Source: Gracilariopsis chorda (Eukaryota; Rhodophyta; Florideophyceae; Gracilariales; Gracilariaceae). From it: DNA of 64,000 bases. Location of the stretch: assembly GCA_003194525.1 (NCBI GenBank), contig NBIV01000346.1, positions 1 through 64,000 of the forward strand. The letters are read 5' to 3'. Shown here one piece after another: positions 5,115 to 59,370 of the stretch (position 1 is the first letter of the stretch; each line of letters begins with the position of its first letter). The position numbers and the translations under genes are program-made. Under the pieces are notes generated by a model that did not search any database, was not told the origin of the DNA, and worked only from the letters and a program-made list of their open reading frames with translations.

Positions 5115-5144
5115 CGATGACAGATACATTCTAGTACCGCCGTA

Positions 5145-5150: not shown

Positions 5151-5234
5151 GCATTGTCTCATTTATATCATGATGCACATAAGAGCTAGGAGTCGCCCTT
5201 TTCTTTCTTCATCAGAAAAATATGTCTTAACCTG

Positions 5235-7603: not shown

Positions 7604-7678
7604 GTTTAGAGGTGCTAGGTCAAAGGCGGAACTGTTGATGAAGAACGGGAGAGAGAGAGAACGGGCAGGTGTGTCTGA

Positions 7679-7685
7679 TTTTATA
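7679..7685 (-). promoter_or_regulatory. TATA box of the membrane-protein gene, left copy
   Basis: TATAAAA on the minus strand, about 75 bases upstream of the ATG at 7603 and conserved in the right arm at 46458-46464. It decides the start: the open frame extends through it, but those codons would lie upstream of the transcript. Confidence 0.45.
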
Positions 7686-8243: not shown

Positions 8244-9086
8244 ATGACGAGTGGCCGCGGATCGCGCAGCTGGGGACAGTTCCTTGCGGAGATTGAGGAA
8301 GCCGTGGCTGTGGGGATGTGGAAGAAGCGGGAACAGAAGGAAGCGGAGGAGGAAGGGTTGGAGGGAGTGCTTGCGTTGTGTTCTAGGGCGATGGTGAGGG
8401 AGGTGGGGAAGGAGGTGGAGAGGGGTGTGCGTGGGATGCGGAAGAAGATTGCAGCGTTTGTGGTTCGAGAGGTGGGAGGGTTGAGGGAGGAGCATGAAAG
8501 GTTTCAGGCGCGGCTACGGGAGGTGGAGAGGTTGGTGAAGGAGGGAGGTGGAGTTGGGGAGAGTCGTGGTGGACGGCGGGGCTCACCCGTGACTGTGACG
8601 CCGAATGGTAAGATGACGGGTGGTTTTAAGTATGTGAGTGGCGATGGGATAGCCTTTGGACCTGGAGACGGGGGCTTTGATGGGGAAGTCGAGAAGGAGG
8701 GGGTACGGTTTGTGGCCGAGACTGCGGAGAGCGAGGGAGAGGTGTGCAAGGGGAGGGTTGGGGAGAAGATGCCGATAGTGAGAGAGGACTTGAAGGGATG
8801 CGGTAAGCGTGGAATGGGTGGAGGGAAGGAGGCGAAGAAGGGCACTAGGAAGGGGACTCGTGGGCTTAGGAGTGTAGGAGAGGCAGCGAGGGAGGCAGAG
8901 AGAATCTTGGGTGATCAGCGCAAGAGGAGGTGGGAGGTGGATGGTGAGGTTGATGAGGAGAGGCGTTGTGGACGTTGGGGGAAGAGAGTGAAGAAGGAAA
9001 AGGAGGAGAGCGTACCGGACGACTTCTTCAAACTGACGTTCCCGGAGACGGAGACGCAGCCGCCTCTCGGTGCGGAGTGGTTTTGA
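8244..9086 (+). CDS. Charged, Gly/Arg/Glu-rich protein of unknown function, left copy
   Basis: Intact 280-codon frame. The first ATG is at 8244; the open frame begins earlier, but without an ATG. The first ~110 residues are rich in Glu, Arg, Lys and Leu with a heptad-like pattern, so probably a coiled coil. A Gly-rich linker follows, then basic clusters near residues 195-260 (KEAKKGTRKGTR, KRRWEV, KRVKKEKEE) that could be nuclear-localisation or nucleic-acid-binding segments. The coding strand is extremely purine- and G-rich. It is open in both arms, unlike most other genes of the block. No family recognised; a DNA-binding role is inference only. Confidence 0.65.
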   Translation: MTSGRGSRSWGQFLAEIEEAVAVGMWKKREQKEAEEEGLEGVLALCSRAMVREVGKEVERGVRGMRKKIAAFVVREVGGLREEHERFQARLREVERLVKEGGGVGESRGGRRGSPVTVTPNGKMTGGFKYVSGDGIAFGPGDGGFDGEVEKEGVRFVAETAESEGEVCKGRVGEKMPIVREDLKGCGKRGMGGGKEAKKGTRKGTRGLRSVGEAAREAERILGDQRKRRWEVDGEVDEERRCGRWGKRVKKEKEESVPDDFFKLTFPETETQPPLGAEWF

Positions 9087-9391
9087 TGGGTGTCGTCGTG
9101 ATATGGGTTGGTAAGAGCGGTTCTTAAGCTCCAGACCCGTTATTCACATCTAGCGAATGACATACAAAACTCCACGGTAAACTAGCGACGTCTTTTGCGT
9201 TCGTTTTGCATTCATAATATGGAAGAATCTGTGCTAGAATCGAATGCGAAAACTAGCTGGCACTCTAAAAAATTAACGAAAATTACCTCTGCATTCGCGA
9301 TCCGTCATTTTCTGCAGACGTTTTGGACGACATATTTCAATCAGACCAAACTAGCCCCAAATATTAGCGTTTCGAGAACACAGACGCTGTC
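9087..9391. other. Inner end of the left arm
   Basis: Non-coding, base composition balanced, about 97 % identical to 44752-45056 reversed. It ends in CAGACGCTGTC. This is the last sequence shared by both arms and is the candidate terminus of the duplicated element. Confidence 0.6.
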
Positions 9392-11027
9392 GAATAAGGC
9401 GCCGATGAAGGGGAAGACCATTTCGAGGGTGCGGTAATCCTTTGCTTCCAGCATTCTCCGTAAGCCTTCTGTGGTGCAGAAGCCGTTGAGGGCTTGGAAG
9501 TTGTCGGTTGTGGAGAAGTCGATGTGGGGGCCGGGTGCGGGGGAGTCCTTTTCGATGGTGGCAAGGATGGAGTTGGAGTGTTTAAGGATGGAGGTGCAGA
9601 TGGAATGGTAGGAACGTTTAGTGTTGTTGGGGCCGACTGTGGTGAAGAGTGATTCGGAGTGGAGTCGTTCGATGGCGGTGGCTTTGATGAGCTTTGAGAC
9701 GCTAAGGTGGAAGTTGTGAAGGGGTTCGAAAGCGAAGATGTTGTAAGAAGAGAGAAGGGAAGTGATGCTTAGAATGGTATAACATTCGAAGAGAGAGAGA
9801 TACTTTGCGAGGGAGAGGGACTGGAGGGCTCTGGTTGCTTGTAACGTTTTGGTGCAAGCGACTTTTGGCTTTCAGGCGAGCCGGCCTTCGTCGGACTGGC
9901 GGAGGAGAGTGGCGTGTTCTCTGCGTTTTTCTCTGCGTTTGTTTCCAGTCTGGGATTGTGTGCCGAAGTGGATGGGGTTTGTGTTGAGGGAGAGGTATTC
10001 GCGGGTGACGGTACATCTGGGGCAGGGGTGCTGTGGTCGTGTTCCGTGCGAGATGTCGAGGATGTCCTTTGCCTCTGGAATGTCTGCGCAATAGCTGGAG
10101 AGGATGGGGTGACACTGGCGGAGTACAACGTGGGCGTCACGGAATGAGAAACCGAGGAGGGCGGAAGAGAGGAGTGGGTTGAGGATTGCAGAGGTGACGC
10201 GCTGACTGAGGTCCATTCTTGTTTCGCGTGGGATCTTGGAGGACGAATGTGGGATGAAGTCTGCGTGGTCGGGGGAGGAAGAGGGAGAGGAGGAGTTTGG
10301 GAGGTATCCGCGGAGGGTGAGGTTTTTCAGAGATACATTTTCGGCGAAATGCGTCTGAGAAGTTGAGAAGTGTGATTTGAAGGGGATATGAGTTGATGGG
10401 GGAGCTCTTGAGTGAGGTGGCGGACTTATCGCAGTAAACCTGGACGAGACCGACGAAATATTCCATACCAGTTGTTTCGGGGGTGTGCCAGACGATGTCA
10501 TTGATTTGGCACTGCATGACGGCTTGTTTGAAGGCAGGAACGAATTTGTTTCCAAAGGCTGCGTCCGTAGGATGGGCGAAGGCGGGGGTGGAAGAGGAGG
10601 AAGGGGAAGATTGGGAGACAGGTTGGAAGAAAGTGTTGTTGAAGTGTGCGAGAGCGATTTGTTGCTTCAGGACGTCTGTGGCGCGTTTTTGGAAGAGGGT
10701 TGCAGAGAAGAAGTTGTGCTCGTCGGTAAGTGTGAGAGGGAGGAAGCTAGTGGAGCGGATGCATTCCTTGAGGAGGTGTTCTTGGAGTGCGAGGCACTGC
10801 TTTGCGGAGGAGATGGATTTCTGGAAGGATGACTTGGAGAAGTCTGGGTGGTTGAGAAGGCAGATGAGTTCGTTGGCTTTGCGTGTGGTGAAGGAGGAAG
10901 CGATGGAGGAGATGCAGCGGACGAGTTGCTCAAGATGGGGATTGTTGAGGAGAGGGGAGGGGGATTGGGAAGAGGTATGGGGAGGTGGGTTTGAGGAGGA
11001 GATTGAACAGAGGGCGTGACTTGCCAT
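9392..11027 (-). pseudogene. KDZ/Plavaka-like DDE transposase remnant
   Basis: Reading downwards from the ATG at 11027, at least three frames are needed. They contain: a helical N-terminal part (NELICLLNHPDF); a strand-type segment VQVYCDKSATSLKSSPINSY (near 10420-10480), which fits the family's first catalytic-Asp strand; then a segment with DAHVVLRQCHPILSSYCAD and a CPRC zinc-type pair (near 10010-10140); then FEPLHNFHLSVSKLIK (near 9685-9735); and a C-terminal helix ending at 9391, where the inverted arm begins. The order fits Kyakuja-Dileera-Zisupton/Plavaka transposases. A possible zinc-binding N-terminal extension with CCDPRC lies near 11300-11320. It is broken by frameshifts and probably truncated by the arm. 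Confidence 0.5.
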
Positions 11028-11329
11028 GTGGTGTGTATCTTGTGTTTGGAGGGAAAGGGGGCCCTGTTGGATGTGATAGGGTTCATCTTCGGCGAGGGGG
11101 ACGTTGTAGGAGGGGCGGTGTGAGGGAGTGGGAGGAGGAATGGTGGAGAGATTTGGAACGGTTTTTCATCGCTTGGTCCTTGGAGGGAACTGGACGGGAG
11201 CGTTGGCGGAAGAAGAAGGGCGTTTGTCGGGGGTTAGTCGATGAGGGCACCTGCGTTGGTGACTCGGAGAGAGAACGCGGTGCGGCCATAGAAGGTGCAA
11301 CGGGGATCGCAACAGAGTATCATGGCGGG

Positions 11330-11893
11330 GGAAGGAGAACGGAGAACGGGATGCTTGGAAACGGAGAAGGGAGGGTAGTAGCGGAGTGGGATATCGGGTA
11401 GCGTAATATTATGGCGCACGTAGATGAGGTGGTGCACGTGATGTAGAGCGTCTTTTCGAAGGGCGTGGGGTAGAGCATGTGATGCAGGGAGCAGATCGGA
11501 CAGCGGGTGATAGAATGCCAAAGCTATTTGGTTATGTAAACGCTATGTATCTATTCTATCTCTTCTATCTATTATATTTTGGTATTTGAAGGGGCACTCG
11601 CTCAGGACCAGTAAGATTTGGATTCCACGCGCACCTGAGAGAGTAGGTATTAGTGGAGTCTGGCGCTAGTTTTACCTCCAAAAAATGGGAAATGTCTAGT
11701 ATACTGCTAGTCGTTTGTCCCAAGCAAACTAGCTCTGTGCTATGTATGGAATTATTTCGAGAAATTTGATTCATTAAAAATTGGGTTTGAAGAGTCGTTA
11801 TTCGTTCATTTTAAATCTTTGCCTTTTTAATACCAAACTAGCATAACGAGAACACCGACGGAACTCTCGGGGAGATCCAATATAAAGACAATC
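11330..11893. other. Unassigned stretch
   Basis: AT-rich from about 11520 on. It may hold the lost 3' LTR of the gypsy element that follows, but I could not find a matching copy near 21 kb. No gene seen. Confidence 0.4.
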
Positions 11894-44751: not shown

Positions 44752-45056
44752 GACAGCGTCTGTGTTCTCGGAACGCTAGTATTTGGGGCTAGTTTGATCT
44801 GCTTGAAATATGTCGTCCAAAACTTCTGCAGAAAATGACGGATCGCGAATGCAGAGGTAATTTTCGTTAATTTTTTAGAGTGCCAGCTATTTTTCGCATT
44901 CGATTCTAGCACAGAGTCTTCAATATTATGAATGCAAAACGAACGCAAAAGACGTCGCTAGTTTACCGTGGAGTTTTGTGTGTCATTCGCTAGATGTGAA
45001 TAACGGGTCTGGAGCTTAAGAACCGCTCTTACCAACCCATATCACGACGACACCCA
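44752..45056. other. Inner end of the right arm
   Basis: Non-coding partner of 9087-9391. It begins GACAGCGTC and continues into the 3' flank of the charged-protein gene. Confidence 0.6.
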
Positions 45057-45899
45057 TCAAAACCAGTCTCCACGGAGAGGCGGCTGCGTCTCTGTCTCCG
45101 GGAACGTCAGTTTGAAGAAGTCTTTCAGTACGCTCTTCTCCTTCTCCTTCTTCACTCTCTTCCCCCAACGTCCACAACGCCTCTCCTCATCAACCTCACC
45201 ATCCACCTCCCACCTCCTCTTGCGCTGATCACCCAAGATTCTCTCTGCCTCCCTCGCCGCCTCTCCTACACTCCTAAGCCTACGAGTCCCCTTCCTAGTG
45301 CCATTCTTCGCCTCCTTCCCTCCACCCACTCCACGCTTACCGCATCCCTTCAAGTCCTCTCTCACTATCGGCATCTTCTCCCCAACCCTCCCCTTGCACA
45401 CCTCCCCCTCGCTCTCCGCAGTCTCGGCCACAAACCGTACCCCCTCCTTCTCGACTTCCCCATCAAAGCCCCCGTCTCCAGGTCCAAAGGCTATCCCATC
45501 GCCACTCACATACCTAAAACCACCCGTCATCTTACCATTCGGCGTCACAGTCACGGGTGAGCCCCGCCGTCCACCACGACTCTCCCCAACTCCACCTCCC
45601 TCCTTCACCAACCTCTCCAACTCCCGTAGCCGCGCCTGAAACCTTTCCTGCTCCTCCCTCAACCCTCCCACCTCTCGAACCACAAAAGCTGCAATCTTCT
45701 TCCACATCCCACGCACACCCCTCTCCACCTCCTTCCCCACCTCCCTCACCATCGCCCTAGAACACAACGCAAGCACTCCCTCCAACCCTTCCTCCTCCGC
45801 TTCCTCCTGTTCCCGCTTCTTCCACATACCCACAGCCACGGCTTCCTCAATCTCCGCAAGGAACTGTCCCCAGCTGCGCGATCCGCGGCCACTCGTCAT
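45057..45899 (-). CDS. Charged, Gly/Arg/Glu-rich protein of unknown function, right copy
   Basis: Intact frame of 280 codons from the ATG complementary to 45897-45899, with a handful of substitutions against the left copy and no indels. Coiled-coil-like N-terminal third, Gly-rich middle, and basic clusters near the C-terminus. Open frames in both arms suggest that it either decayed later than its neighbours or is under constraint. No family recognised. Confidence 0.65.
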   Translation of the reverse strand: MTSGRGSRSWGQFLAEIEEAVAVGMWKKREQEEAEEEGLEGVLALCSRAMVREVGKEVERGVRGMWKKIAAFVVREVGGLREEQERFQARLRELERLVKEGGGVGESRGGRRGSPVTVTPNGKMTGGFRYVSGDGIAFGPGDGGFDGEVEKEGVRFVAETAESEGEVCKGRVGEKMPIVREDLKGCGKRGVGGGKEAKNGTRKGTRRLRSVGEAAREAERILGDQRKRRWEVDGEVDEERRCGRWGKRVKKEKEKSVLKDFFKLTFPETETQPPLRGDWF

Positions 45900-46457
45900 C
45901 TCAAACACAACACAGCTGAAAGAAAGCGGCAAGGATCAAAAGAAGTGGTAGAGATCGAAATAAGTGGAACAACCCCCGGTGAGAACCTCACGCGCCAGCC
46001 GCTCCCGCGCATTCACTTACCCGCCATTTTACCCCCTTCCAAAAACCCCCATACACTGTATTTCAAAGTATCTAGCACTTTCCGCTTTTACTTTCATTTC
46101 TACCCCACCCAATAACCTCTCTCATATCGTCACCCCCTCTCTACACCCCAGATGTACCCCTTCGATGCCCAATAAACTCATATTCTTTACCTCTACCGCC
46201 ATCCCACAGCCCCCATTTACATAAACCTCATTATTTCTTCTTCATAACCCTTTCCCCTTCTTCTGCGCACGTTCTGGACCTCTTATACCACTTCTACCAG
46301 AAAGTGTTTCTCATCTCCTTCGTTTTCACTTCTCAATATTGTGCATTGAATATGAACAGAAACGCGTTCAAAACGCGTAGAACAACCGTTTGGTCCTGCC
46401 TTTAATCTTCCTTCATCTAGTCGCCATCATCTAGTTCAATAAAGCTATTCTGTTGCA
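45900..46457. other. Divergent promoter region in the right arm
   Basis: Gene-free spacer between two divergently read genes (45899 downwards, 46540 upwards), strongly C-rich on the plus strand in its first half. The corresponding left-arm stretch is 7686-8243. Confidence 0.45.
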
Positions 46458-46464
46458 TATAAAA
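46458..46464 (+). promoter_or_regulatory. TATA box of the membrane-protein gene, right copy
   Basis: TATAAAA 76 bases before the ATG at 46540. The upstream extension of the frame uses no ATG and overlaps this box, so translation must start at 46540. Confidence 0.5.
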
Positions 46465-46539
46465 TCAGACACACCTGCCCGTTCTCTCTCTCTCCCGTTC
46501 TTCATCAACAGTTCCGCCTTTGACCTAGCACATCTAAAC

Positions 46540-47739
46540 ATGTTGTTCGAGAACTTTCGCTCCCAACAATACGTCTTCCTCCACAATGACGTTCGAGCAA
46601 CTCTCACGTTCGACATTCTCCCCAACAAAACCTACCTTCGTTTCAACAATTGCTTGAAGCTAGAGTACTGCAGGGACACCAACAAGTCTTATCTTTCAGG
46701 CGCAGCATCCATTCTAAATGATGAAGTGAAAGCCGAAATGACCAACATTGACCAACTCCTGCGCAACAACCCCTCTGACCCCCGGTTCTTGCACAATCAC
46801 CTTCTACTACAAGACCTCCCATACCTTCGACACATATCCAACTACATTCCTTCCTATCAATCCCTTTCGAACAATCCATTCCATATGGAAAGTCTTCTTT
46901 CTCTACTAATTTTCACCTCCCTCCTCTCCTTCGCCATCGGAACTCTCTACGGTGTTTTGAAACCAGTGGTCACCAAATTCCTTCTATCCGGCCATTACTC
47001 CTGTGAAGCGGAGACTGGATATACCATACTGTACGGTATCATCGAGACAGTACTCCATATCTTGTTGTTCGACTTTGCATTCTCCCTTCACAAGGAGTTG
47101 TTCGGCTCCCTCTCTTTCAGCCCAGTGAACCCCACTCAACATTATGGCAGACTGAGCACCATCAGCGCAAGATTCGCAGGACTTGCCATAGCTGGACTCC
47201 TCGCCCTGAACGCGAACATATTCGCCAGCTACGAACTGCTACCAACGCCAGCTTCCCTAAGCTGTTCTATACGGAACGCCTCCATCGCGTTCTTTCCCGG
47301 TGGATTCTTTTTCGCCCTAAGAGTCTACTTTGTCGACAGATTGGCCGTGTACGCCCTCACAGGCCACCCGTTCAACAACAGAGTCCTTTTCCTATATTCG
47401 CCACACTATCTCTCCAACATCATACAAATTTTTACGTCAACGGCCTGGAAGTCTCTTCGAAGAGCATTGTTCCTGGACGACATCGTAATCTCCATTCGCA
47501 CCTTTCTTCGTCAAGTTGTGCCCGTCTTCTTCGCGCACTTCACTTCGGAGTCCATCCAACCTTCTGCCTTTTCAACCCACAGAAGTTTCCCCCCACTAGT
47601 GACTAACACTTTATTCATTCTTCTCCTCGTCTGCTCCAGCGCTATAGATTACGAAATCAAATATAGATTCAAGCGATATATTGCAGCTATCGGAACAAAC
47701 CCCACACCCCCGACCTCTCGGGTTCTTCCGTACGAATAA
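46540..47739 (+). CDS. Multi-pass membrane protein of the duplicated block, right copy
   Basis: 399 codons from the ATG at 46540, with no lesion seen. The soluble N-terminal ~110 residues are followed by hydrophobic segments. These include SLLSLLIFTSLLSFAIG, TILYGIIETVLHILLFDFAF, RFAGLAIAGLLALNANIF, a Phe-rich segment near 47290-47340, and a last one, TNTLFILLLVCSSAI, near the C-terminus that is absent from the left copy after its frameshift. I do not recognise a family; transporter or membrane-anchoring roles are both possible. It lies divergent from the charged-protein gene. Confidence 0.65.
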   Translation: MLFENFRSQQYVFLHNDVRATLTFDILPNKTYLRFNNCLKLEYCRDTNKSYLSGAASILNDEVKAEMTNIDQLLRNNPSDPRFLHNHLLLQDLPYLRHISNYIPSYQSLSNNPFHMESLLSLLIFTSLLSFAIGTLYGVLKPVVTKFLLSGHYSCEAETGYTILYGIIETVLHILLFDFAFSLHKELFGSLSFSPVNPTQHYGRLSTISARFAGLAIAGLLALNANIFASYELLPTPASLSCSIRNASIAFFPGGFFFALRVYFVDRLAVYALTGHPFNNRVLFLYSPHYLSNIIQIFTSTAWKSLRRALFLDDIVISIRTFLRQVVPVFFAHFTSESIQPSAFSTHRSFPPLVTNTLFILLLVCSSAIDYEIKYRFKRYIAAIGTNPTPPTSRVLPYE

Positions 47740-48247
47740 CTTCTAGAACAACAGACCAAAAATACAGAATACCTTCGTTGTCGTAGCCCCTTCATCTTCT
47801 ATCTTCCGCATTCCCTTCCAGTTGGCGTCTTTGCACAGCTGTTAAGATTTAGGATATGTGAGATACATACTATGCTTTTCTTCTATACCCCATTGTAGAG
47901 GTTTATCTTATAACTATACCACTTTTTAATGTACGCGAGTGAGTTCATTGTACGTTTTAGAAAGCGAGTGAGCTTGAAGTAAGATATCCAATGCCAAGGT
48001 TCTCCTTGTAGACGACTCCATACACGGTAAGAATTATATTTGGTTCATTCTGATTCAGAAACACAGTTAGACGCATATTGTAGTATTAACATATCAAGCT
48101 GCGTACTTCGAAAGCTGTTTAGATGTCGCAGAAGTACGGTTTTAGTAGAAAATTGGAGACCGAAATATTTGAGGACGGGTTAGCGTGGATACTAAATATC
48201 TCGCGTACTATATCGCGGCTTTGTTCAGAGCTTAAGCTATTTTCCCG
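47740..48247. other. Gene-free spacer in the right arm
   Basis: AT-rich partner of 5897-6544; nothing recognised beyond probable promoter and 3'-end sequence. Confidence 0.5.
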
Positions 48248-48910
48248 ATGTTGAGTGGGTACATTAGAGATGAAGAACTGCTCACTCTTTTGAATCACAC
48301 GGAAGTCCCCGAAACGCCGCCCAGAGATGAAGCAGATGGTTATGAGGGAACAGAAGAGAAGAAGAAGACTGTTGGGCTAGGAGACCTGGGAGTTGGAGTA
48401 ATGGCTGCGAATGGAGGAGGAGATGCAGGTGGTGGACCGGAGCACAGATTCCGAAAGGATATGAAGGCCCAGGTGAAGGCTTTAAGTGCCTCGTTGAAGG
48501 AGAGTTTGTATACTTGTATGACAGATGTAGTGTTTGAGTATGGTGGCCTGTCTTGGAGCTTTTCTGATGGTGGGATTCCACTGGACGTGGGTACTATTGT
48601 TCGAGATCGGATGAAAATGGCAGGGGTCTTGATAGGGGATCATGTGGAAGGTATCGTGGAGTGCTTGGTGAGGGAAATAGGAGCAGTTTATCGAAAGAAC
48701 AATGCTCTAGAAGACAGAGTGACTGTCCTTGAAATGCAGCTTAGAGAGGCCGTTAATATTCAGGTGCACTTGAGAAACAGAGTGAACGGAGCGCAACATG
48801 GGGCCGGTGGAGCAGGCGGTGTTCATAGAAGCTGCCTAGGGACGAGGAAAAGAATGGAAGACAAAAGTGAAGATGTGGAGCGAAGTACTCTCTTGAAGAA
48901 GAAACGTTGA
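48248..48910 (+). CDS. Coiled-coil protein of unknown function, right copy
   Basis: Intact 220-codon ORF. An acidic N-terminal 50 residues is followed by a Gly-rich patch, and then a globular region around GIPLDVGTIVRDRMK. A heptad-patterned segment (VYRKNNALEDRVTVLEMQL) suits dimerisation. The C-terminus is very basic (ending LLKKKR). It is convergent with the dioxygenase gene. The left copy is broken. Function unknown; a structural or DNA-associated role in the element is only inference. Confidence 0.6.
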   Translation: MLSGYIRDEELLTLLNHTEVPETPPRDEADGYEGTEEKKKTVGLGDLGVGVMAANGGGDAGGGPEHRFRKDMKAQVKALSASLKESLYTCMTDVVFEYGGLSWSFSDGGIPLDVGTIVRDRMKMAGVLIGDHVEGIVECLVREIGAVYRKNNALEDRVTVLEMQLREAVNIQVHLRNRVNGAQHGAGGAGGVHRSCLGTRKRMEDKSEDVERSTLLKKKR

Positions 48911-48994
48911 CAGGTTAAGACATATTTTTCTGATGAAGAAAGAAAAGGACGACTCCTAGCTCTTATGTGCATCATGATATGAATGAGACAATGC

Positions 48995-49000
48995 TTTATT
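48995..49000 (-). terminator. Polyadenylation signal AATAAA, right copy
   Basis: AATAAA on the minus strand, conserved with 5145-5150, about 30 bases after the dioxygenase tail. Confidence 0.5.
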
Positions 49001-49030
49001 TACGGCGGTACTAGAATGTATCTGTCATCG

Positions 49031-50136
49031 CTAACTATCTTCTTCCATATCCTCATCTCCTTTCTCACCCTCCTCTTGAGTATAAATGGCGTCGTCCGCA
49101 TTATCATTTCCATCTTCATTAGCATCATATTCGCCATCATTTTCATTTTGGGGGTTCTCGTCGTCTTCTAGAGGTTCTTGTGACACTCTGTCATCAGCGG
49201 AGCCCTCTTCGTTATCCCCAACTCCTGGCAACAGAATGGTTCCTTTTGTTCCGCTTTTGTACTTCCGTATTAAGTCCTCGTCCTCCACAAACCTGGGTCT
49301 AAAACTCGATTGAAGTTGAACCGCATCCGGTAGCTTGTAGTCCTCTGGTACCTGTATATATGGTAACGGAACAGAAAATTCTGTGCCATGATCGCATCTC
49401 TACTCCCTGCCCCCGCATGGGACACATCTCCTCTTCCAATGAATATAGATAACGGTGGAATTAAGAACTTCCTGGTCGCGTATCCTCCAGAAACCGCTTC
49501 CAACTCCGCATTTGTTGTCACAAAATGCTTGTGAGACCTCTCGCACACCCACAACGGAAACGAATACTTGCCAGAGGCTATCATAAAGTACCCCGGATTC
49601 TTTTCGTTCAGTTTCTCCGGGATCGTCAGCGTCTGAACGTCCGTATGTAGCTTCTGTCTGGGACAGCCGCGTCCAGTACACAACACTCTACCCCCAGTCT
49701 TTGGCGCGAACATCTTATGCACCGCCACTCGGTTATCTTCCAATCCTAGGCATACACAGATCTGACCCATACGTGCATCCAACAACGCCCGCCTCTTCGC
49801 CACCCAGTGATTCTCCGTCGTTCTTTCCATTTCATCCGCGATTCCTCTCCGTGTATTCATATACCTTGTAGACCAAGACAGTCTGTCTGCTTCATCAGCG
49901 GCCTCCCCAGCATTGAAAATGGGGTTCCAGAACTCTTGATTCTCTGCTTCTCGAAGATCTTGTTGGCGATTGAAATACTCCTCGAAGAATCCAAGCAGCT
50001 TCTCACTCACATCACCATCCATCAGGTCACTCATGGCATGGAGCCTGCTCCTCATTCCTTCATCCGTTCCGAAACCTTCCAGCACACAAAATCCTCGCTC
50101 TTTCAACTCGCTTGTCTTCTTCGCAAAGTACACCAT
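49031..50136 (-). pseudogene. Probable 2-oxoglutarate/Fe(II) dioxygenase with acidic tail, right copy
   Basis: ATG at 50136. The fold signs are an N-terminal GFCVLEGF strand-turn-strand; KLHTDVQTL (HxD, first two iron ligands) near residues 163-171; FPLWVCERSHKHF; and then IPPLSIFIGRGDVSHAGAGSRD, which supplies the distal His and a 2-oxoglutarate-type Arg. These are the hallmarks of the phytanoyl-dioxygenase/prolyl-hydroxylase superfamily; which subgroup I cannot tell. Near 49359 the frame shifts, so the open stretch ends at 49270. The original tail is readable to 49031 in another frame and is almost wholly Glu/Asp/Asn. It follows the 70-codon ORF after TAA plus six bases, in the same frame. 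Possible targets (DNA base, histone, RNA) are inferred only from the methyltransferase nearby. Confidence 0.55.
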
Positions 50137-50142
50137 GGCGTA

Positions 50143-50355
50143 TTAGTCCTCCTCCACTGCCCGCTCCCAGAGACTGTTCGCTTCCGCATCGCTGAGAACC
50201 GGCGCTGCTTCTTCAGACGCTTTCCTTTCCCTATTCCATTCGCTCAAAAGCTCCTGGAACGCACCATGCCAGAAAACTGCGTGATGAACATCCCTCATGT
50301 CATTCGGCCCAAGCAAATGGCAACGGTGCTCCTTGGGAAGATTTATCCTGTCCAT
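50143..50355 (-). CDS. 70-codon ORF between ParB-like and dioxygenase genes
   Basis: Open in the right arm from the ATG at 50355. It is helical, with HHAVFWHGAFQELLSEW and an acidic end. It lies in the same reading frame as both the upstream ParB-like ORF and the downstream dioxygenase ORF, with only a TAA and two codons between each pair. It could be a separate small protein, or a linker of one longer protein whose frame is interrupted by two stop codons. Confidence 0.45.
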   Translation of the reverse strand: MDRINLPKEHRCHLLGPNDMRDVHHAVFWHGAFQELLSEWNRERKASEEAAPVLSDAEANSLWERAVEED

Positions 50356-50361
50356 CCACGC

Positions 50362-53146
50362 TTAAATGCCCTTAACACCATCTGCAGTTGCGGTGGGCCA
50401 CCTGCTGGGCAACATGTCCACATACTTGAGCCAGCTCAAGTCCCCCACATTGGTATCCTCCTCGGCCTTGACCAATCCTTCTGGAAGAATCTGAGGCACT
50501 TCATCATCAAACTTCTTCTTGTTTGGATCGTTCCTGTCTTCATCTTCTCCTCCCTCGTCGTCACTGAAAAGCAGTAGCTTATTCTTTCTTAAGAAGTGGC
50601 ATAGTTCACGTCCTCGCTTCTGCTTCAGAATGTTGATGACGAAGTCAGGAACATCATCGGTTCTCTGCCTTTTCGCATCGGCGTCCACCGATTCAAACAC
50701 CAGCTCCTCAGCGTCCTCTTCGTCTACCGAGTCTTTCTCTGCCGGTTTCTTTGTTTTCCGGACCTTTCTCTTCCTCTTCCCCAGCGTAGATCCCGCAGAA
50801 ACCATCCCCGTTGCACCTCCGTCTTTCAAGTGGCCCAGAGCCTTCTTCTTACTCGCCCTCGCGGGCAAGCTCGAATTACTACCCTGAACTGCGCTTTGCC
50901 CCTGTGTCTTCGGAACAGGTACAGGTGCGGGAGGGACAGGACTTGGATTTGGCTTTTGAAAGTCCATACGGAACGTCGTTCCCAGTCTCTTCTTCATATT
51001 CGTCAGCCTCTTCGATATGTTTCCTTCTCACATGGCAGGAGTGGTCGCCCTCTCCAGGCATGCGGTGTTTTTGGCAACATAATCTCGAACAGGAACAACC
51101 AGGGACCCTATCAAAACCTCAGTTTTGAAAACGGTGTGAAGCCCTATGTTCTTCGTCTTCGCCACTTCTTCAAATAGGTTGTAAGCTTCCTCACAACATC
51201 TGAAGAAATGCAACCTCATGTCCTGAAACCTACCCATAGCAGTCCCTTTTGATGCTCTTCGCACGTCATAGTGTTCCTGTAAGGCTTCCAACGCAAAGTT
51301 CATCCTGTCCCCCTTCAGATTGAAGAACCTGTCACTGGAAAAGTGCTTAATCCCCAGCTCCGGGTACTTGAAGCACATTTCCTTCATTCTCGACATGAAG
51401 TCTTCGTCGGTGAACATTCTCAAACCCATGTCCACAAACCGCAACATGTTTTGGGGTTTGAAGTCCCTATCACCTTGCGCTTCAACATTGCACCACGTAG
51501 CATTGTGCGCGTGACTTTCTTGAAGTCCACCTTCGTCTCCTTTTCAATCGTTTTCATAAACGAATGAATGGAGTAGAGCTTGTCTCGAAATGACATCACT
51601 CTAGCCGCAGCAACCGTATCATTCAGCGCGTTTCCAATCGAAATCACTTGAGACATGGTCATTTGCAGCCCATCATGTCTTCTCCAAAACGATACACTGA
51701 GCCGGTGGCAGACATCCTGAAGTTTTTCATTCGTTTTCTTCTGGTCGAGGTAAACATTCAAGCGGTGTAACCCGTCAACCAAAGTACATTCTACCACAAT
51801 TCGGTTCCCTTCAAACCACTCATGTCCCGGCTTCTTCGTACCGATAAATGTGAAACTCAGATTCCCAACGGACCCCAAGATTTCGTAGAGCTCTATTTGC
51901 TGCTCTACTTCGTTCTTGTGGGTGAGGTCTAGTTCTGGCACACCGTCATCCGGAGGCTTAATGAGGTCAATGTCGACAACATACGTATGGTATGTGTAGT
52001 CGTTCATATCAAACGAAATATCCAGCATACTGTCGTCGACATCATCAGGAGGTAGCTCATCTCCCTTATCGAACAAGTCAACTTCGGCCTCTGAAGCCAA
52101 TGCTTTCGAACCCACGAACTGCACCTCATCATCATCACTTCCTTCTTCCTTCCCACCAGGTTTCTCTGGGAATACAACCTCCATCGGTGCGCTGCTTCCT
52201 GCCTCCATAATTGCTTCTGCAACTTGGGTCTGATACGCCAATTGACTCTGACCACCACTGCCTGCATCACTTGCGTTGCCAGCAGTTCCCTCAGCAATTG
52301 TTAAGGCTTTCGGGGGGCAGAAACGGCAGTCTGCGCTGTCTGTAACTGCGACGCACCTCCCCCACTGCTGGCTCCAGGGTTTAGTGGAGGCTTCGCCGGA
52401 GTGACAATGGGATTCGCGGTGTTTCCTTTCTTCGGATCGCTCAGTCTGACCACCTTCGCCTTTCCGGTGGAGGTGGTCGTCTTCACATTGGAGTGCAACG
52501 CACCCTTGTGTATTTCATCACCTTCGTCGTCACTCAAGCTCACCAATTGCGTCAACTTCTTCGCCTTCGCCTTTCTTGCGGTGTTCTGCTTCAACTTCTT
52601 GGTGGACGGATTCATCGTCGCAGCGGGAGTCTGGGCGGAAGACGGTTTTGCAGCGGGATTGGAGGGAGTGGAGGCTCCGCCACCAGAAGGTTGAATCATG
52701 TTCACGTCCCAGCAGTAGAAAGTGTGGCTCTCCATATCTCCCAGAGTGTTCGGCACGCTGTCACTCGTCTTGAACTGATACGGGTACTGCATATCTTTGC
52801 CATCCTCAATGAGCACCTTCCATATGACGACAAGGTCCTCTGTCGGCTTCCCCTTCAGTTCGTGCCCATGCAACGTCCTCACCAAGTGCCCACCAGCACC
52901 GGAATCACCTTCGACAAAGGAAGTCCCCACGCTCTTCTTCTCCCCATTCGGTAGACGGACGACCAGGGTCACCTTCTCGCTTGGGTTCGGCCCCCAGGAT
53001 GGGTCACTGGGCTGCTTTGTGCCGCTGCGCGTTGTTGGCATTGCGCTATCGGACGGTGTTGCCCTTGCTTTCCGCACAGAGGCACTGGGTCTGATACACC
53101 TCCTAGTGTGCCGCCTGTTGTCCGCATTTGCAGTCTTGCGCACCAT
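50362..53146 (-). pseudogene. ParB-like domain protein, right copy, frameshifted
   Basis: Start ATG complementary to 53144-53146. The first ~280 codons are open and include the stretch lost by frameshift in the left copy. One C missing in a C-run near 52315, one T missing near 51447 and a TGA near 51026 (TGG in the left copy) break it. The domain order is: basic N-terminus; a compact domain around KVTLVVRLPNGEKK; a Lys/Ser/Pro linker; an acidic patch; then VVDIDLIKPP...ILGSVGNLSFTFIG...VDGLHRLNVY. This resembles the ParB N-terminal fold, with GLHRL in place of the classic GERR box. A helical domain and a charged C-terminus with KRKRKVRK follow. ParB-type domains bind DNA palindromes and CTP or act as nucleases; which applies here is unknown. 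Confidence 0.6.
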
Positions 53147-53442
53147 GATGGGAAACCTTTCGATAAGCGACCTTTCGATAAGCGACACAGAATCGCGTAA
53201 TCTGGTGCAGACGGTCGCGAAAATCAGCGCGTGCTGACAGCTGAATTCAACCCTGAGGGAAGGCACAGGTTCTCTTTGCGTCCTTTCAGTTGTACCAGGT
53301 GCTAAGGTGGCACGAAGAAGTGGATTCGGTGAGTTCGCTCACAGTTCTTTGCGGAGGAAGCATTCCGGTCGCCCTTTCGACCTCTTCTCTAACTCCCCCC
53401 CTGCCACGCGTCAACGCTTCATTGCTGGCACCGACCCCCAGG

Positions 53443-53598
53443 CCGGCGCAGCTGCGCCGGGTGGTCGGTCTTGACATTGTCGGTCGACAATGTCAAGAAC
53501 GACCCCCCGTAATTTAATCAAAAATCAACATTCTGGTGCCCGTGCTTGACATTGTCGACCGACAATGTCAAGACCATTCACCCGGCGCAGCTGCGCCG
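53443..53598. promoter_or_regulatory. Palindrome array between two divergent genes, right arm
   Basis: Order: CCGGCGCAGCTGCGCCGG (53443-53460), 28-base palindrome (53470-53497), AT-rich centre, second 28-base palindrome (53545-53572), CGGCGCAGCTGCGCCG (53583-53598). Both 28-mers have the same 13-base arms as in the left arm, beginning CTTGACATTG. The array lies 297 bp from the ParB-like start and 287 bp from the methyltransferase start. It is a natural candidate for an autoregulatory operator, a partition-like centromere site or a transposase binding site. Confidence 0.75.
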
Positions 53599-53884
53599 TT
53601 AGACCGACAACCTGAACTGTGAGAACTGCGACGAATTCTCGAAGTTTCACCTTCTCCGTCTGTTCTGCACTGCCCAACTCCCTCATTCCAAACAAAAACC
53701 TCCGAAGTTTCCTTCCGTGCTCCATTACACACTTCGAAATCAAATCTATTCGAAGTTCGAGGGACGTGAATCATCAGAACGGGCGTCTTCGTTCCTCGGT
53801 TGCCACGAAGCATCTCCTTCGCAACCATTCAAACTCGAACGCAATCTTTCGTGCATCTGTGCATCTCCCGCCAAAATTCCACCC

Positions 53885-56800
53885 ATGTCGTTCCCCTCCA
53901 CTAAACAGGGAAGTACCTCAGGTGCACCCGTGATAGGGCATAGGGCTCCTGCGCACCCGCCCTCAGACATGAGCATTTCGGAAAGCTTCACAACCATCTG
54001 GAATGTGTTTATGTCCGTCTGTGATGCGTACGCGGAATCGAAAGGCTCCGGGGTCCCTAAACGCGATGTCACATTCGAGAAGATTGTAGAGTTTATGCTA
54101 CAGAATCGTCGAGCGAATTCAGAAGTGGTCGGATTGTTGGAAAGATTCCTTGGTTCCTCCCACACCTCCTAAGGCGACGAAGAGGTCACTGCTTATCTTT
54201 GCACCTCTTTACAGGGTCCGACGCAGTACTTCCGACAGGTTTATCGATATGTGGCATTGTTCGATAAACAAGACGGGTCGAAAGACAGGCGTGTACGGGA
54301 CTTTCACGAGTGGACCCTTGACGGGAGGCGCGGAGGTGGAACAGGGATGGTACAAAGGGTGTTCAACAGTCACATCTTCAAGAGGTAATTTCGCGTAGCC
54401 GCTACGGGGAAGGGAAGGGGAAGGTTTAGGACCGTTCCTGCTACTCGATTCCAACAGCTGCTGTACCTGTCGGTGGTAAAGCACATCGAGATTGAACGCA
54501 CGGCTCGGGAACGGAAGTGACGCTTCGGACACGGAAAGAAGGTGAAGGCAGTTAAGTACGTGGAAAGTTTCACCATGTCTAATCCCATGCACGGTCAGTG
54601 TATGGCGTACGGCGTACAGCACGTATGCAGGGCTTGGGACGCGTTCGCTGTCGTTCTGGGTTTCAGATACTGCGAGCAGATGATGCTTCCTTATCTCCTT
54701 ATCAACAGAGACACTTTAGAGCTCTCTGATATTCACTCCCGAACGATTGGTTACAGCCCCAAAACCGCCGCGTACAAGCTGGGACAAGAAATGAAGCCGA
54801 CGGTATCCGAGGACAATGTTGTTCCCTGGGCTATTGCTTTTTCGGATGACGTAGACCGCAATATGCGTATTCTGGCCAGAGAATTCGTCTCGGATCTTCG
54901 GCGTATTGTACTGGACAAGAAGATGTATGAGCTGAGTGAAACCGAGCAATGGCCAGTGCTATCTACTTTTACGCGAAGCGGTACGAACCCACCGGTTCAA
55001 TTTGACTCCTTGTCCGAAGATATTGCCAAATCAGTGAAGGAAGCATGTGCAAAGCATAATGTTCAACCCAGCAAAGCTTGGTCGCGCCCTACGGATGTAC
55101 ATACCAAACCATCCGCCGCTCCTGGAACCAAGAGCCACACGAAGAGCGTGCAGGCCGTTGGAAAGCAGCTCCGTGAGAGGTCCAATGGCTCCGGACAGAC
55201 GGATGGGAGCGGTAGTAGCAGTGATGACGTAATTGCCACGCCTACTGCTCCCACTGCTGCGGAGATACAGGCAACGGTGGACGTTTTGGTGAACATCCTC
55301 CCTCCTCATGGGACGTTGGGGCCTGTGACTGCGAAGGTTATGAAGATTCTGGAGTCCGTGATGGACAAGAACTTTGCGTTCTACTGCGTGGACTCCGAAG
55401 AGCTGGTGGACGTTCATGAACGTGTTCTGGGAGGCACCATATCTCCGAGGGGGAGAGTTCAGCTCTCTATATCTGACGCGCCGTATCAAATTCGGGATAC
55501 CGAATACGATCGCATCAGTCACCAGAAGATGGTTTCGTTTGCCGATCACAACTCGGATTGCCTGCGTCCTGGCGGACCCTTGTTCGTCTTCTGTTCAGGT
55601 TTTCAGTCCTGATATGGTACAAGATTTTGACCGACTGCCAATACGTTGATGCAGACGGGAGGATGAAGAAGTCTTTCACCGTGGATAAGACGTCCCTGTT
55701 GTGTTTGCGCCATCGCTCAAACCCGATGGCGTTCCCTCGTCGCAACAACATTAGCTTGTTCCCCGCAGGGGAGCAAGTAGTGCATGCGGTTCGGAATGGC
55801 ATTCCCTATGCGGAGCGGAAGACAATGGTGAACTACCGTAAGTTCAACCATGTTGACAGCCGATACCCTGGACATGTCGGAGTAATCGATCAGGTTCCCA
55901 ATCATGCCCCAGGAGAGAGACTGTACTGGAAGGTGCGGGATGGGCAATGATTTGTAAATCGTCAGATTCGCCCGGAGCAGAAGTCGAGACAGTTGATGAA
56001 AGAGCTCATAGCACGTTTTTCTCAACCTGGAGACCTTGTCATGGATTTCTTCTCAGGAACGTTTACCACAGCACTCGCGTGCATGGAACTTGTTCCGCAC
56101 AGAAAGTTAATCGGCGGTGAGAAGTATCGTTATTGTTTCATACACGCGAAGCATAACGGTATAGTGCATATGGGAAAGTTAGTTGCCGACAATTCCCTCA
56201 AAGTCGGTGACTTGGAATGTGATGAACGCATCGGTACGAATGCTGTTGTAAAGGCAGCACTTCATGTGGCCACGGTGTTCAGGAAGAGATCCAGAGGAAT
56301 GCAATGGACAGCACCGAAGGATTTCCCGCAGTATCAAAGGTTTCTTTTCCATATAATGGCTTTTCTATCGACTTTATGGTGTGATATGGATCTTATCGGC
56401 AAGTATCGTACTAAGGCTTTACATCTGTGGCCGCAAAGCACTCAGGCAAAGCTGAACGAGTTAGAGCCAGAGTTGTTGCGTGGTGTAGATGCTTCAAGTT
56501 ACTGGTGCGTGGTGGCGAAGTCTTCAGTGAAGCACCCATCTAGAGGGCTCGGAGTCTTTAGTGCACGATATTTCGCAGAAGGAGAGGCTGTTTGTCACTT
56601 CTATGGGACTATTGTGTATCATGACATTAATCAACGTCCCCAACAACATGTTACGTATGGGGAGGGGCTCATGGCAGCTACTGTTTCGCGTAAACAAGTT
56701 CTCCATGGAAGTGGTAGGTAGCGGCATTGGTTTTGAAACTCTGCCTACCTATAATGGAGGAACGAAGACAGCGAGGATATGGATTGTTCCTGCACCTTTT

Positions 56801-57025
56801 TGTATGGCAGGCTATATTAATGATCCCCACTACCTGGACGGAGACGAGGAGAAAGACTTAGCAGAAGATGAACCCAACATACGAAGAAAGGCGAATGCTC
56901 AGATACGTCCGGTGAGCTGTACGTTATCGCAGCAAAGGATTATGGAATACATTCTGCTATTTGCGAGACCAATACGCGATATAAAGGAAGGAGAAGAGTT
57001 GTTTCTTCGTTACGGGAATGATTAG
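53885..57025 (+). pseudogene. DNA methyltransferase fused to a SET domain, broken
   Basis: From the ATG at 53885 one frame continues to 55612, interrupted only by TAA (54170), TAA (54386) and TGA (54518). Near 55612 a 4-base insertion shifts the frame, a TGA follows at 55948, and another shift lies near 56700. Methyltransferase signs: SDAPYQIR (motif IV, 55472-55495), an R-P-E-Q-K segment, and then VMDFFSGTFTTALA (motif I, AdoMet binding, near 56040-56080). Catalytic motif before AdoMet motif is the beta-class order of N4-cytosine/N6-adenine enzymes; Ala replaces the first Pro of DPPY. The C-terminal part is a SET domain: GLGVFSARYFAEGEAV, AGYINDPHY, a later N-A pair and IKEGEELFLRYG. A fused DNA and protein methyltransferase of about 1050 codons is unusual. 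Confidence 0.7.
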
Positions 57026-57530
57026 GTTTTTAGAAGCACGGATTGAAGTCTTCTTACCTGTGTTACTTGTGAAGCACTATTTTGAGTAAACTTCGATTCT
57101 GTTATTCTCGACATCCTGGTTCCTGTCTTATTCGTTGTTAAAGCTTTCAATTGTGAAATGGGATAGAGGTGCTAAATGGCATTTAGTTCAAGTGAATTAA
57201 TAGAAAGAAAGAGGAACAGGATAACATATGTATACCTGTCGTTAAGGATTTGAGGGAGTGTGTGGAAACGAATCGTGAAAGATATGGATGAGGGTTTCCA
57301 AATACTCCATTTTTGCATAGGTTTTTGGGTAGCTCGTCGTTCATGGCGGGATATTCAAAAATCCATTTTTCTCGGGCTTCGGATGACACAGTTTATACAT
57401 CTTCTGGCTCTTTCGCCTCATCCCGCGAAGTCACTTTCGAAGTCAATCCTTTCCTTTGTCTCCAACCTGGTCTAACTTCTACTTTCCGCATCCCGATACC
57501 ACCGTTTGGTTCAATACCGCCTATTTACGG
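57026..57530. other. Gene-free spacer after the methyltransferase-SET gene
   Basis: AT-rich at first; no convincing ORF. Probably the 3' end of the upstream gene and the promoter of the next. Confidence 0.4.
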
Positions 57531-58430
57531 ATGGGAAAACAGCAGCAGCGCGTACGGTACAGTAAGGACGGCGGTACGTCGAAGTCTCTCAAAGTAAATG
57601 GTGGGAGGCCAAGTGTGGACTCGGAAAGACCCTTCGCGGGAAGTTCAAGTGCTGCAGATGCGCGGAAAAGCAAGAAACCGGGTGTGTATGTGAAGAGAGG
57701 TCCGCCGCGTTCTGGGTTGCAAACGACGGAGAGGCGACGTGAAAGTACCATCGTACAAACGGGGAAGGAAGATGAAAAGCAGGAAGGAGGCACCTCAACT
57801 ATGACGGACCGTAAGGTGAGAGATGTCGTAAGGAGGAAGACGGAAAGACAGCCGAGAGGTCCAGTTACTCGTAATCGTGCCGTTCACACGGTTTTATTGG
57901 TAGAAAGTGAGGAAGAGGAAGAAGGAGAAACCGAAAGAGAACCGAAGAGGCGAAGGTCTAGTGGCAGTTACGGCGGTGTTGTCGAGGAGAGACGTAAAGG
58001 GAAGGCAGCCGAACAGTGTTTAGAGAGGAATGAGGAGCAGGGCAGCACTCTTGCCTCAAAGTAACACGTGAGTGAGACACCGCAAGACGAAGTACACCAA
58101 GGTACGGGGGAAACTAGGGAACGCAAGAAGGGTCCCGTTCGTTTTCAAGCTGCATTACGACGTGTTGGCGGGGAGGGACGTGGAGGGAAGGAGAATACGA
58201 AGCAATCAGCCGTTGTCTGCGGAAATGGAGGCCGAACTCGCAGAGTCCCGGCACGCAGAACAACGCAAGGGTCCTCTTACCGGCTAAATCGGGATAATGC
58301 TATGAAGAGTGTCGAACATGGATACGCTGACGAAGCTATACGAAGGGAGTCGATACAGTGCACGAGGGTAGGTGGAGGTGGGAAGGGAGATCGGATCTGG
58401 GAGAAGGAAAGGTATGAGGAGTAGGAGGTT
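57531..58430 (+). pseudogene. Basic, nuclear-type protein gene cut by an LTR insertion
   Basis: The ATG at 57531 opens 177 codons to a TAA at 58062. The same frame stays open for another 119 codons to a TAG at 58422, ten bases before the LTR of the next element. The protein is rich in Arg, Lys, Gly and Ser. It has a Glu run followed by REPKRRRSS, which looks like a bipartite nuclear-localisation signal. The part after the TAA is similarly basic (RERKKGPVRF, GRTRRVPARRTT), which suggests that the TAA is either recent or not the natural end. No family recognised. It may be the next gene of the duplicated block. Confidence 0.45.
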
Positions 58431-58431: not shown

Positions 58432-59370
58432 TGTGGTGCAATACCACACGTGGAAAGGATCCCGCGACAGCGGCAAAGTCACCCAAGGTTTCCGAGCCTT
58501 GCTCCCTTGGTGAGGGCGGCTCAGAGGTAGAGCCCTCCGAACGTGACCCACACGAGTCGGATGTAGGGCCGAACGGTCACTTCTCGCACAGCGCACGGAG
58601 GTGTGGGGAGAATCGGATCTAGCGCTCGACGGACAGTCGATCAGTGTGCTACTCGGTGTTGCCGTTGGCCTAGTGGAGTCCGCTGTATGCCGCAGCGCGG
58701 CGAGTGGAACACCCACGAATGAGGGAACGATCCGTACAACGGTATCCTCTAGGACAAAGAAATGAGGGGTGGGGAACGAGCCGCACGGCCGGCGCAGACT
58801 CGTGGCGAGCAATGAATATCCCAAGACGTCGGGGCCAAACCTGATACAGGGCGGAGTAGAAACAGTCCGTATGACGATAAACAGAAGAAGAAACAACAAA
58901 AGAAAACAGAAAGTAGTCCGTAAGTAACGGTTGTATCACTCATTGATGTGCAAGGGGGGTGACGGAACCGGATCGGTAGCAGCACTCCCCTAGGTTGGGG
59001 TCGTAGCCGTATACCAACGGTCAAAGTCAGAGCCAAAACCCTTTTTGAGGTTTTCTTCCGTAGGGTCGGCGGCGAGTGCCGCCACCTAAGTACGGCCACT
59101 GTAGTGTGGATTACTAACTAAAAATAACTAATTACCCCGGGTGCACCGGGCCTGACTTCCACTTGTGCGTGGTGGCTCACTTGGCATGAGCCGTCCACTC
59201 AGGCGGTGTGCACTACACGTGTTACCCACAAGTACCCCCTTCATAGGGGCATCTCCCATATAATGGGTTAGCCCAATACACCTCATGTATTCCGTATCCC
59301 AACGGCTAACCACGCATCTTATATGAAGAGCGATTTGATTCCTTCTACCTCCGGAGGCTATTGCACCACA
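58432..59370 (-). repeat. 3' LTR of gypsy element D
   Basis: 939 bp bounded by perfect 12-bp inverted ends, TGTGGTGCAATA (58432-58443) and its complement (59359-59370), so it starts TG and ends CA. A minus-strand polypurine tract adjoins it at 59371-59384 (AGGAGGGGGAAA). The GC-rich hairpin near 59072-59087 and the following AT-rich block resemble the two solo LTR-like repeats at 35.8 and 42.9 kb. No second LTR lies in the window, so the assignment rests on ends and tract. Confidence 0.7.

Follow-up and report, generated by a model that had tools for sequence, protein, structure and literature searches.

We analysed the first 64 kb of contig C346 (NBIV01000346.1, positions 1 to 64,000; hereafter the window) from the genome assembly of the red alga Gracilariopsis chorda (GCA_003194525.1; 91.3 Mb in 1081 contigs). 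The window carries two incomplete copies of a Plavaka-type DNA transposon whose cargo includes two large genes placed head to head around an array of palindromes. One of these genes fuses a predicted DNA methyltransferase (MTase) to a SET domain, and the other joins a ParB-like region to a dioxygenase-like domain. We regard it as close to certain that a whole superfamily of Plavaka-type transposons bearing this gene-pair module inhabits the genome. Labels beginning with C denote contigs of the same assembly, and labels beginning with L denote loci fetched from it.

This conclusion draws on gene order across the genome. After merging, the lists comprised 85 dioxygenase, 40 MTase and 114 Plavaka loci, copies within one family being non-independent. 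Of the 85 listed dioxygenase loci, 17 have an MTase gene head to head with them and no more than 9 kb away, and none has one on the wrong strand or on the other side; 12 of these 17 belong to the window family and five (C46, C7, C151, C314 and C745) to others. Moreover, 35 of the 85 (10 from the window family and 25 others) have a Plavaka gene within 25 kb whose side and strand are as expected, as against three on the wrong strand and one on the other side, and a convergent Plavaka gene is found within 12 kb at 24/40 listed MTase loci, never on the same strand. These genome counts are lower bounds, with 95 of 211, 46 of 372, 44 of 348 and 123 of 133 first-look candidates scored in the four lists. 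The same order, that is, a ParB-like/dioxygenase-like gene and an MTase-SET gene diverging from the palindromes, with a Plavaka gene further on that points back towards them, therefore recurs across loci and indicates a superfamily of elements rather than a single accident. An earlier note on this DNA had proposed a selfish mobile element of a eukaryote. The many copies, shared gene order and common ends bear this out, and scattered single-copy genes without shared boundaries were not the outcome of the genome search.

Transposon identity, extent and copies

On sequence features, we classify the element as a Plavaka-related DNA transposon. Its right third, absent from the window, contains a 1053-residue minus-strand frame (L038:1796-4954) with the Plavaka domain PF18759 (E = 1.2e-13; 51.5 bits against a cut-off of 26.3), which supplies the transposase that the earlier note had been unable to identify. 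This domain gives at least 114 matches in the genome, four of them below cut-off, and none in 14 control genomes. C(2)C motifs (KPCHRC, KPCYIC or HPCPRC) and H(3)H motifs (FHLLGH, FHLLDH or YHLLDH) occur in every transposase copy read, the first row of L027, a broken alignment, being the exception; for the CMCT clade, a C(2)C and an H(3-4)H motif located between the second D and the E are described as a common feature (PMC12730594; here and below this source, PMC11244446, PMC8885841 and PMC12704722 are cited from excerpts). By eye, candidates for the DDE triad are YSDKSS in L037 and L025 but YSEKSS in L038, ADIPEAKD, and IYEHAH.

The terminal inverted repeats (TIRs) measure about 23 bp and are identical at 21 of 23 positions between the two ends in C94. 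A matching 2-bp target-site duplication (TSD) was found in seven of the ten copies with both ends read (TA three times, and AT, TG, AG and GT once each). Among the seven is a diverged relative (C53) whose right end matches poorly, with 7 mismatches. C12, C3 and C105 have no matching duplication. PlavakaA elements are described with termini TGT..ACA and PlavakaB elements with CATCA..TGATG, with TSDs of 2-3 bp (PMC12730594). The termini CGTCTG..CAGACG match neither type, and hence we place the element in neither group. Near its right end (L038:5790-6015 and 6386-6535) we observed tandem units of about 119 bp (1.9 copies) and another long imperfect palindrome; the palindrome motifs of the window were not found in these two stretches.

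The left end is sharp at 44757, where copy 1 and nine other loci join from differing flanks. The left 2 kb of the element gave 22 genome matches of at least 1.5 kb at 95% identity or more among 33 rows in total, the remaining rows being shorter pieces and relatives at 74-88%. For right ends, 20 near-full genome matches were obtained (84-100% identity). The sequence past 58428 runs on unchanged in all nine right-hand loci read, and 58430 is therefore ruled out as an end of the element; from the limits previously given for the block, 44752 and 58430, only the left one corresponds to a real boundary. Beyond 58428, C37 and C94 are alike for another 6.8 kb, up to the right TIR. The length of ~20.4 kb is the sum of the window copy and C94, and C1065 (24-20844, both ends nearly reached) is consistent with it.

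The two window copies lie in opposite orientation (1-9391 versus 54140-44752) and are 97.6% identical over 9412 bp. The earlier note was thus right about two opposite copies, but the view of them as inverted arms of a single structure is ruled out: they are separate insertions with unrelated flanks, and copy 1 is nested in another element. The target of the copy 1 insertion was the transposase gene of this related Plavaka-type element (42% identity over 151 residues). Copy 2, in turn, is interrupted by a repeat resembling a long terminal repeat (LTR) at 58432. This repeat and its partner at C346:69043 are about 10.6 kb apart, and pairs at equal distance also occur on C168, C127 and C96. We ruled out that copy 2 resumes straight after the LTR element, as the 170 bases past the second LTR copy are unlike the right part of the transposon.

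Shortened forms of the element exist as well. An internal-deletion junction, 49121|53303, was found at three different insertion sites (C1, C12 and C3), and a second one, joining 56618 to L038:1566, is common to C12 and C3 (loci among L027, L028 and L029). As identical deletions occur at separate insertion sites, a shortened form keeping the transposase region and the palindromes has moved. C3 and C228 share their left flank, as do C1 and C330, and these pairs are therefore probably allelic or duplicated contigs. The assembly also holds seven phycobilisome-linker genes (PF00427, all over cut-off), one of them on C12 together with an element copy; among the 14 control genomes, this family matched in a cyanobacterium only.

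The head-to-head genes and the palindromes between them

Both large genes are broken in copy 2 of the window. Long uninterrupted frames in other copies rule out introns, and we hence consider these genes intronless. The MTase-SET frame spans 1003 residues in C12, up to a deletion, and 1065 residues without a stop at C53, C332, C745 and C241, with 34% identity to the C12 frame. In a profile search, PF01555 matched the window frame with E = 8.1e-11, and the natural 351-residue frame of C37 includes the methylase end (PF01555) together with SET (PF00856; E = 1.6e-6, 29.0 against a cut-off of 22.4). Eight relatives of the protein were found, four annotated with PF01555 and PF00856 and four with PF01555 alone. 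A profile scan of seven of them (P0008 left out) placed SET over the cut-off in five, below it in P0004, and absent in P0007, and a SET-like stretch aligns by eye in all eight. P0007 and P0008, which lie on other contigs, are very rich in Gly and Ala and perhaps come from a high-GC host.

The AlphaFold model of relative P0002 (mean predicted local distance difference test score, pLDDT, of 71) matches the fold of the N6-adenine methylase CcrM (E = 4.5e-11), other beta-class methylases and the bdelloid N4CMT (PDB 8s9o, E = 3.0e-9). On its SET side, it matches SET7/9, SETD8, PRDM9 and MLL3 (E from 3e-5 to 6e-5). With the profiles and the fold of P0002, the beta-class N6_N4 MTase and SET assignments are firm, and the fused gene described in the earlier note is substantiated by the presence of both domains in one frame, in C37 as in the relatives. 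The open stretch from C53 has the canonical motifs SDPPY and DLFAGT. For P0002, NCBIfam yielded one weak effector match, along with adenine-methylase matches that stayed far under the cut-off; the four other proteins scanned had no match. A search of prokaryote contigs for MTase-SET found none.

On the other side of the palindromes, the ParB-like and dioxygenase-like parts, previously described as two genes, proved to be one. The fusion is open in a single frame of 1038 residues in C179 and, in two other families, of 1417 in C204 and 1349 in C172 (it is open at loci L089 and L090). Among 18 aligned sequences of the C-terminal dioxygenase-like domain, the first H of the HxD...H...R pattern is kept in 16, the D in 17, the distal H in 17 and the R in 18; the C320 copy, outside this alignment, has Y at the distal H. 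We computed the ratio of nonsynonymous to synonymous substitution rates (dN/dS) of this domain for 14 pairs. It was 0.12-0.19 in six between-family pairs, with synonymous sites close to saturation in four of the six, 1.1 and 1.3 in two close-copy pairs and 0.35-0.63 in four others, and two distant pairs were saturated. By these ratios, the domain is under purifying selection between families, and the pattern fits a gene that would be selected between transposition generations and released afterwards.

In the ParB-like region, a motif LVDGLHR, LVDGYHR or LVDGRHR follows a G(I/L/W)L-type loop resembling Box I (by eye) in all three families aligned. Searches for relatives of the full 1038-residue fusion found none at E <= 1e-3 among 7992 candidates, within a length window that shuts out short relatives. 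Three relatives of the dioxygenase-like domain were found, and the one named protein among them belongs to the red alga Gracilaria domingensis. When the PDB was searched with sequences or profiles of the dioxygenase-like and ParB-like regions, no match was obtained apart from two weak ones in a single search, the best of them a histidine kinase (E = 0.042).

The divergent genes enclose the palindromes as the earlier note had observed. In the window, palindromes of 30 and 28 bp are flanked by others of 18 and 16 bp. Single-letter shuffling of this region produced arms of at least 10 in 1/200 trials and of at least 12 in 0/200, and for the C204 and C172 regions arms of at least 12 were reached in 0/200 each. 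We fetched the corresponding intergenic stretch at four other loci (C204, C172, C539 and C70). The C70 stretch (L106) contains a gag-like frame and neither gene of the pair, and was therefore left outside the family count. The other three have dioxygenase-like parts only about 44% identical to those of the window family, and in each of them the MTase-SET and ParB-like genes lie head to head with arrays in between (for C539, the reading covers the initial ~50-60 residues of either gene). In the C204 array, a perfect palindrome of 86 bp and another of 76 bp are separated by 235 bp; that of C172 has two imperfect palindromes of about 84 bp and a third, decayed unit, 232-236 bp apart; and that of C539 consists of imperfect units at a spacing of about 112 bp. 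Gene pair and palindromes thus occur together in 4/4 families with at least the start of both genes read.

By blastn at E <= 1e-3, the window-family and C204 arrays resemble no other, and the C172 and C539 arrays are related (E = 3.9e-9). The four families therefore have three unrelated types of palindrome, position and symmetry being kept while the sequence has changed. The exact window-type palindrome has 45 genome copies (reversed control, 0), all 45 near element genes, and the C204 palindrome core has 51 exact copies (control, 0), with 42 of 50 listed C204-type sites near element genes; for this proximity, element matches were considered on palindrome-bearing contigs only. The C204-type palindromes of C53, C241, C48, C332, C745, C114 and C550 rest on an exact match to the 24-bp core, and a second core lies about 236 bp off in all of these except C332.

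Table 1. Coordinates of the transposon copies, their genes and associated features in the window
Feature	Position	Strand	Description
Copy 2	44757..58428	+	Left ~13.7 kb (two thirds) of the ~20.4-kb Plavaka-type DNA transposon; right third, with transposase, missing
Left terminal inverted repeat	44757..44779	+	CGTCTGTGTTCTCGGAACGCTAG; the right terminus of another copy (L038:6896-6918) is its reverse complement with 2 changes
Gene A	45057..45932	-	Charged, coiled-coil-like (by eye), 291 aa, no family
Gene B	46540..47739	+	Predicted membrane protein, 399 aa, 4 hydrophobic segments, no family
Gene C	48248..48910	+	Small charged protein, 220 aa; sub-threshold DivIVA match only (E = 0.0048)
ParB-like/dioxygenase-like fusion gene, broken	49031..53266	-	One intronless gene
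Dioxygenase-like domain	49360..50136	-	HxD...H...R pattern
ParB-like motif region	51740..51980	-	Box I-like loop, then LVDGLHR (GxxR); limits by eye
Palindrome array	53443..53598	.	53443-53460, 53469-53498, 53545-53572 and 53583-53598; between divergent genes
MTase-SET fusion gene, broken	53885..57025	+	N6_N4 MTase motif IV ~55473, motif I ~56044, SET ~56500-57022
Gene G, 5' part	57387..58428	+	Charged protein; longer in other copies, where it runs on beyond the break point
LTR-like repeat at the break	58432..59370	+	Second copy at C346:69043 (L107), 98.3% over 940 bp
Copy 1	1..9386	-	Same element, inserted into a related Plavaka-type element and truncated where the contig begins
Remnant of related Plavaka-type element around copy 1	9387..11860	-	TIR-like end at 11838-11860, 4 mismatches

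Possible roles of the module

We tentatively favour a mechanism of self-recognition and anti-silencing, to which, taken as a whole, we grant a little less than an even chance. The palindromes would be recognition sites for a protein of the element, most simply the ParB-like one, in the fashion of parS and ParB. After loading at the palindromes, the ParB-like protein would spread or recruit, and the dioxygenase fused to it would thereby be brought onto the element's own DNA, where it would remove a host silencing mark. MTase-SET, for its part, would mark DNA and histones in an element-specific way and so keep the element expressed or able to transpose. Such a module could be analogous in role to VANC of the Arabidopsis VANDAL elements or to the transposon-borne TET/JBP genes of fungi. 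The most specific version, in which the ParB-like protein carries the dioxygenase along the element from element-specific palindromes, MTase-SET writes a private DNA-plus-histone mark, and the palindromes have co-evolved with their own protein so that self is told from rivals, we consider conceivable but doubtful.

Several observations weigh against this interpretation. The dioxygenase-like domain has no dioxygenase match in Pfam, PHROGs or PDB, and its AlphaFold model is unusable (pLDDT 32.4), so that the term dioxygenase denotes here a motif-level reading; TET/JBP did not match in Pfam scans run with E values as high as 10. ParB-like identity is likewise a motif-level assignment. The region has no Pfam match, and its hhalign comparison with two phage ParB-like proteins was weak (E = 0.022, probability 2%; unrelated control, 0.27). 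The earlier note had listed a ParB-like protein and a probable 2-oxoglutarate/Fe(II) dioxygenase, and what stands is the conserved HxD...H...R pattern in the latter and the motifs resembling Box I and GxxR in the former. The MTase and SET folds were confirmed on relative P0002. In addition, motif IV of MTase-SET reads SDAPY in 11 of 12 window-family rows, one of the 11 being a broken alignment, and the twelfth row has SDVPY. The broken copies of C172 and C204 read DAPT and SDPHM, respectively; some lineages may therefore have lost the predicted MTase activity. The C539 palindromes are imperfect, with a longest perfect arm of 9 (single-letter shuffles reach 10 in 0/200). Finally, 23 of the 50 listed C204-type sites lie near a Plavaka gene only, with no listed MTase or dioxygenase, and the gene pair is therefore not needed in cis for amplification. 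These sites are probably shorter, amplified derivatives keeping one palindrome. Loci of this kind include C7, C12:585751, C13, C14, C15, C23, C57, C64, C144, C232, C253 and C281.

An alternative that we also hold to be doubtful treats the palindromes as operators within a bidirectional promoter common to both genes. An element protein bound to them would autoregulate the pair, and the enzymes would act on the transposase or on host chromatin at large instead of on the element. Operators are commonly palindromic, and the arrays lie between two divergent starts in 4/4 families read. However, some palindromes are unusually long (perfect over 86 bp in C204), they repeat at spacings of 75, ~112 or ~235 bp, and one palindrome persists at the Plavaka-only loci, where there is no pair to regulate. 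It is unlikely, in our view, that the palindromes serve transposition or replication in cis, as hairpin or replication-associated sites retained because the transposon requires them, with the enzymes as separate cargo. The Plavaka-only loci would agree with this explanation, as would the window-family deletion derivatives, which also retain the array. Nevertheless, the palindromes are located mid-element and not at the ends, they differ between families, and a single ancestral deletion, later amplified, would also explain their retention.

The proposed recognition of the palindromes by the ParB-like protein for the benefit of the element also has to be set against the opposite effect, namely that the module restrains the element. 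MTase-SET would then put repressive marks on its own copies, as copy-number control or domesticated silencing, comparable to bdelloid N4CMT with SETDB1. In bdelloids, an N4C-MTase marks transposons and a partnership with SETDB1 has been proposed (PMC8885841), and N4CMT is among the fold matches of P0002. We judge this very unlikely, since genes that travel on a transposon, with a dioxygenase part under purifying selection, fit better a benefit to the element. That the block is an endogenised virus or plasmid has a next to negligible probability: the large intronless genes, the phage methyltransferases with ParB-type domains (PMC12704722) and one frame with a sub-threshold match to a poxvirus transcription factor (E = 0.074, 12.2 bits against a cut-off of 22) would be compatible with it, but the element has TIRs, 2-bp TSDs and a Plavaka transposase, no capsid, polymerase or packaging family was found among the 10 element proteins or stretches scanned, and the 33 loci found in viral contigs match only the methylase part of MTase-SET.

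Related systems and neighbouring features

Arabidopsis VANDAL elements reportedly encode a sequence-specific anti-silencing protein, VANC (PMC10398659), whose function resembles the one proposed here. VANDAL belongs to another transposon family (MuDR), and we know of no VANDAL element carrying enzymes of the MTase-SET or dioxygenase kind. The closest published relatives are the TET+ Plavaka transposons of Agaricales fungi, which carry a TET/JBP gene (Kojima 2025, PMC12730594), and the pointer of the earlier note to transposon-borne dioxygenases was therefore apt. These elements share with ours a Plavaka-family transposase, a transposon-borne gene of the dioxygenase type and target duplications of 2-3 bp. 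In contrast, our element gives no TET/JBP profile match, has its dioxygenase-like domain fused to a ParB-like region, and adds an MTase-SET partner, palindrome arrays and a red-algal host. The main text of PMC12730594 does not mention ParB; excerpts from it name the anti-silencing of VANC and VANDAL, and also HarbingerS and MuDR transposons of Phytophthora, which likewise carry a SET histone methyltransferase gene. The latter differ in belonging to other transposase superfamilies, and the passage concerned does not mention a fusion to a DNA methyltransferase.

'Plavaka giant repeats' have been described in Amoebidium appalachense, with dinoflagellate and red-algal database matches for recombinase genes (PMC11244446). 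Many of their genes are tyrosine recombinases, and the main text of PMC11244446 does not mention 'SET domain', '6mA' or 'ParB'. Bdelloid N4CMT is, like MTase-SET, a bacterial-type amino-methyltransferase joined to a chromatin module in a eukaryote, but it is a host gene with a chromodomain that silences transposons, whereas the enzyme reported here belongs to a transposon and has SET as its fusion partner (PMC8885841). With regard to ParB, the ParB-CTPase fold includes a GxxR box, and phage ParB fusions to N6_N4 methyltransferases are known (PMC12704722). The element resembles this fold in a helix or loop like Box I followed by a GxxR-like motif, and the phage fusions in the association of a ParB-like part with an MTase; canonical ParB uses parS sites, and the likeness of the element's protein is at motif level only. 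Neither 'dioxygenase' nor 'transposon' is mentioned in the main text of PMC12704722.

Thus, as far as these excerpts go, Plavaka with TET/JBP, large Plavaka repeats, SET on other transposons and a host amino-methylase with a chromatin domain are already published. Among open PMC papers, screened mostly by title and the start of the abstract, we found no transposon that bears an MTase-SET fusion, none in which ParB-like and dioxygenase-like parts are fused, and none whose palindrome arrays are specific to its family; within that literature the gene combination appears undescribed, as the earlier note had supposed. What is new is this combination on a Plavaka-type element, with possibly a new kind of self-recognition. 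Transposons that edit their own chromatin provide a rare view of the conflict between host and parasite over epigenetic marks. Here, one vehicle brings together a bacterial-type DNA methyltransferase and a histone-methyltransferase-type domain, opposite a possible eraser fused to a possible reader of DNA sites. Self-recognition by a eukaryotic transposon becomes directly testable in this system, as open reading frames are available for biochemistry, and, if the mechanism is true, it would represent a transposon-borne route to amino-methylated DNA in red algae. Our results also suggest that complex cargo is carried by Plavaka elements outside fungi and Amoebidium.

The membrane and charged proteins listed in the earlier note are present among the smaller cargo genes (Table 1). 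Elsewhere in the window, retroelement remnants occupy positions 12690-32000, where frames like those of gag, integrase and reverse transcriptase were recognised by eye. Positions 25241-25767 and 32927-33460 form a direct repeat (80%). A strong GC skew (0.32-0.46) extends over the inverted copy and the nested element at 6001-12000, and a skew of opposite sign covers part of copy 2 (44001-48000).

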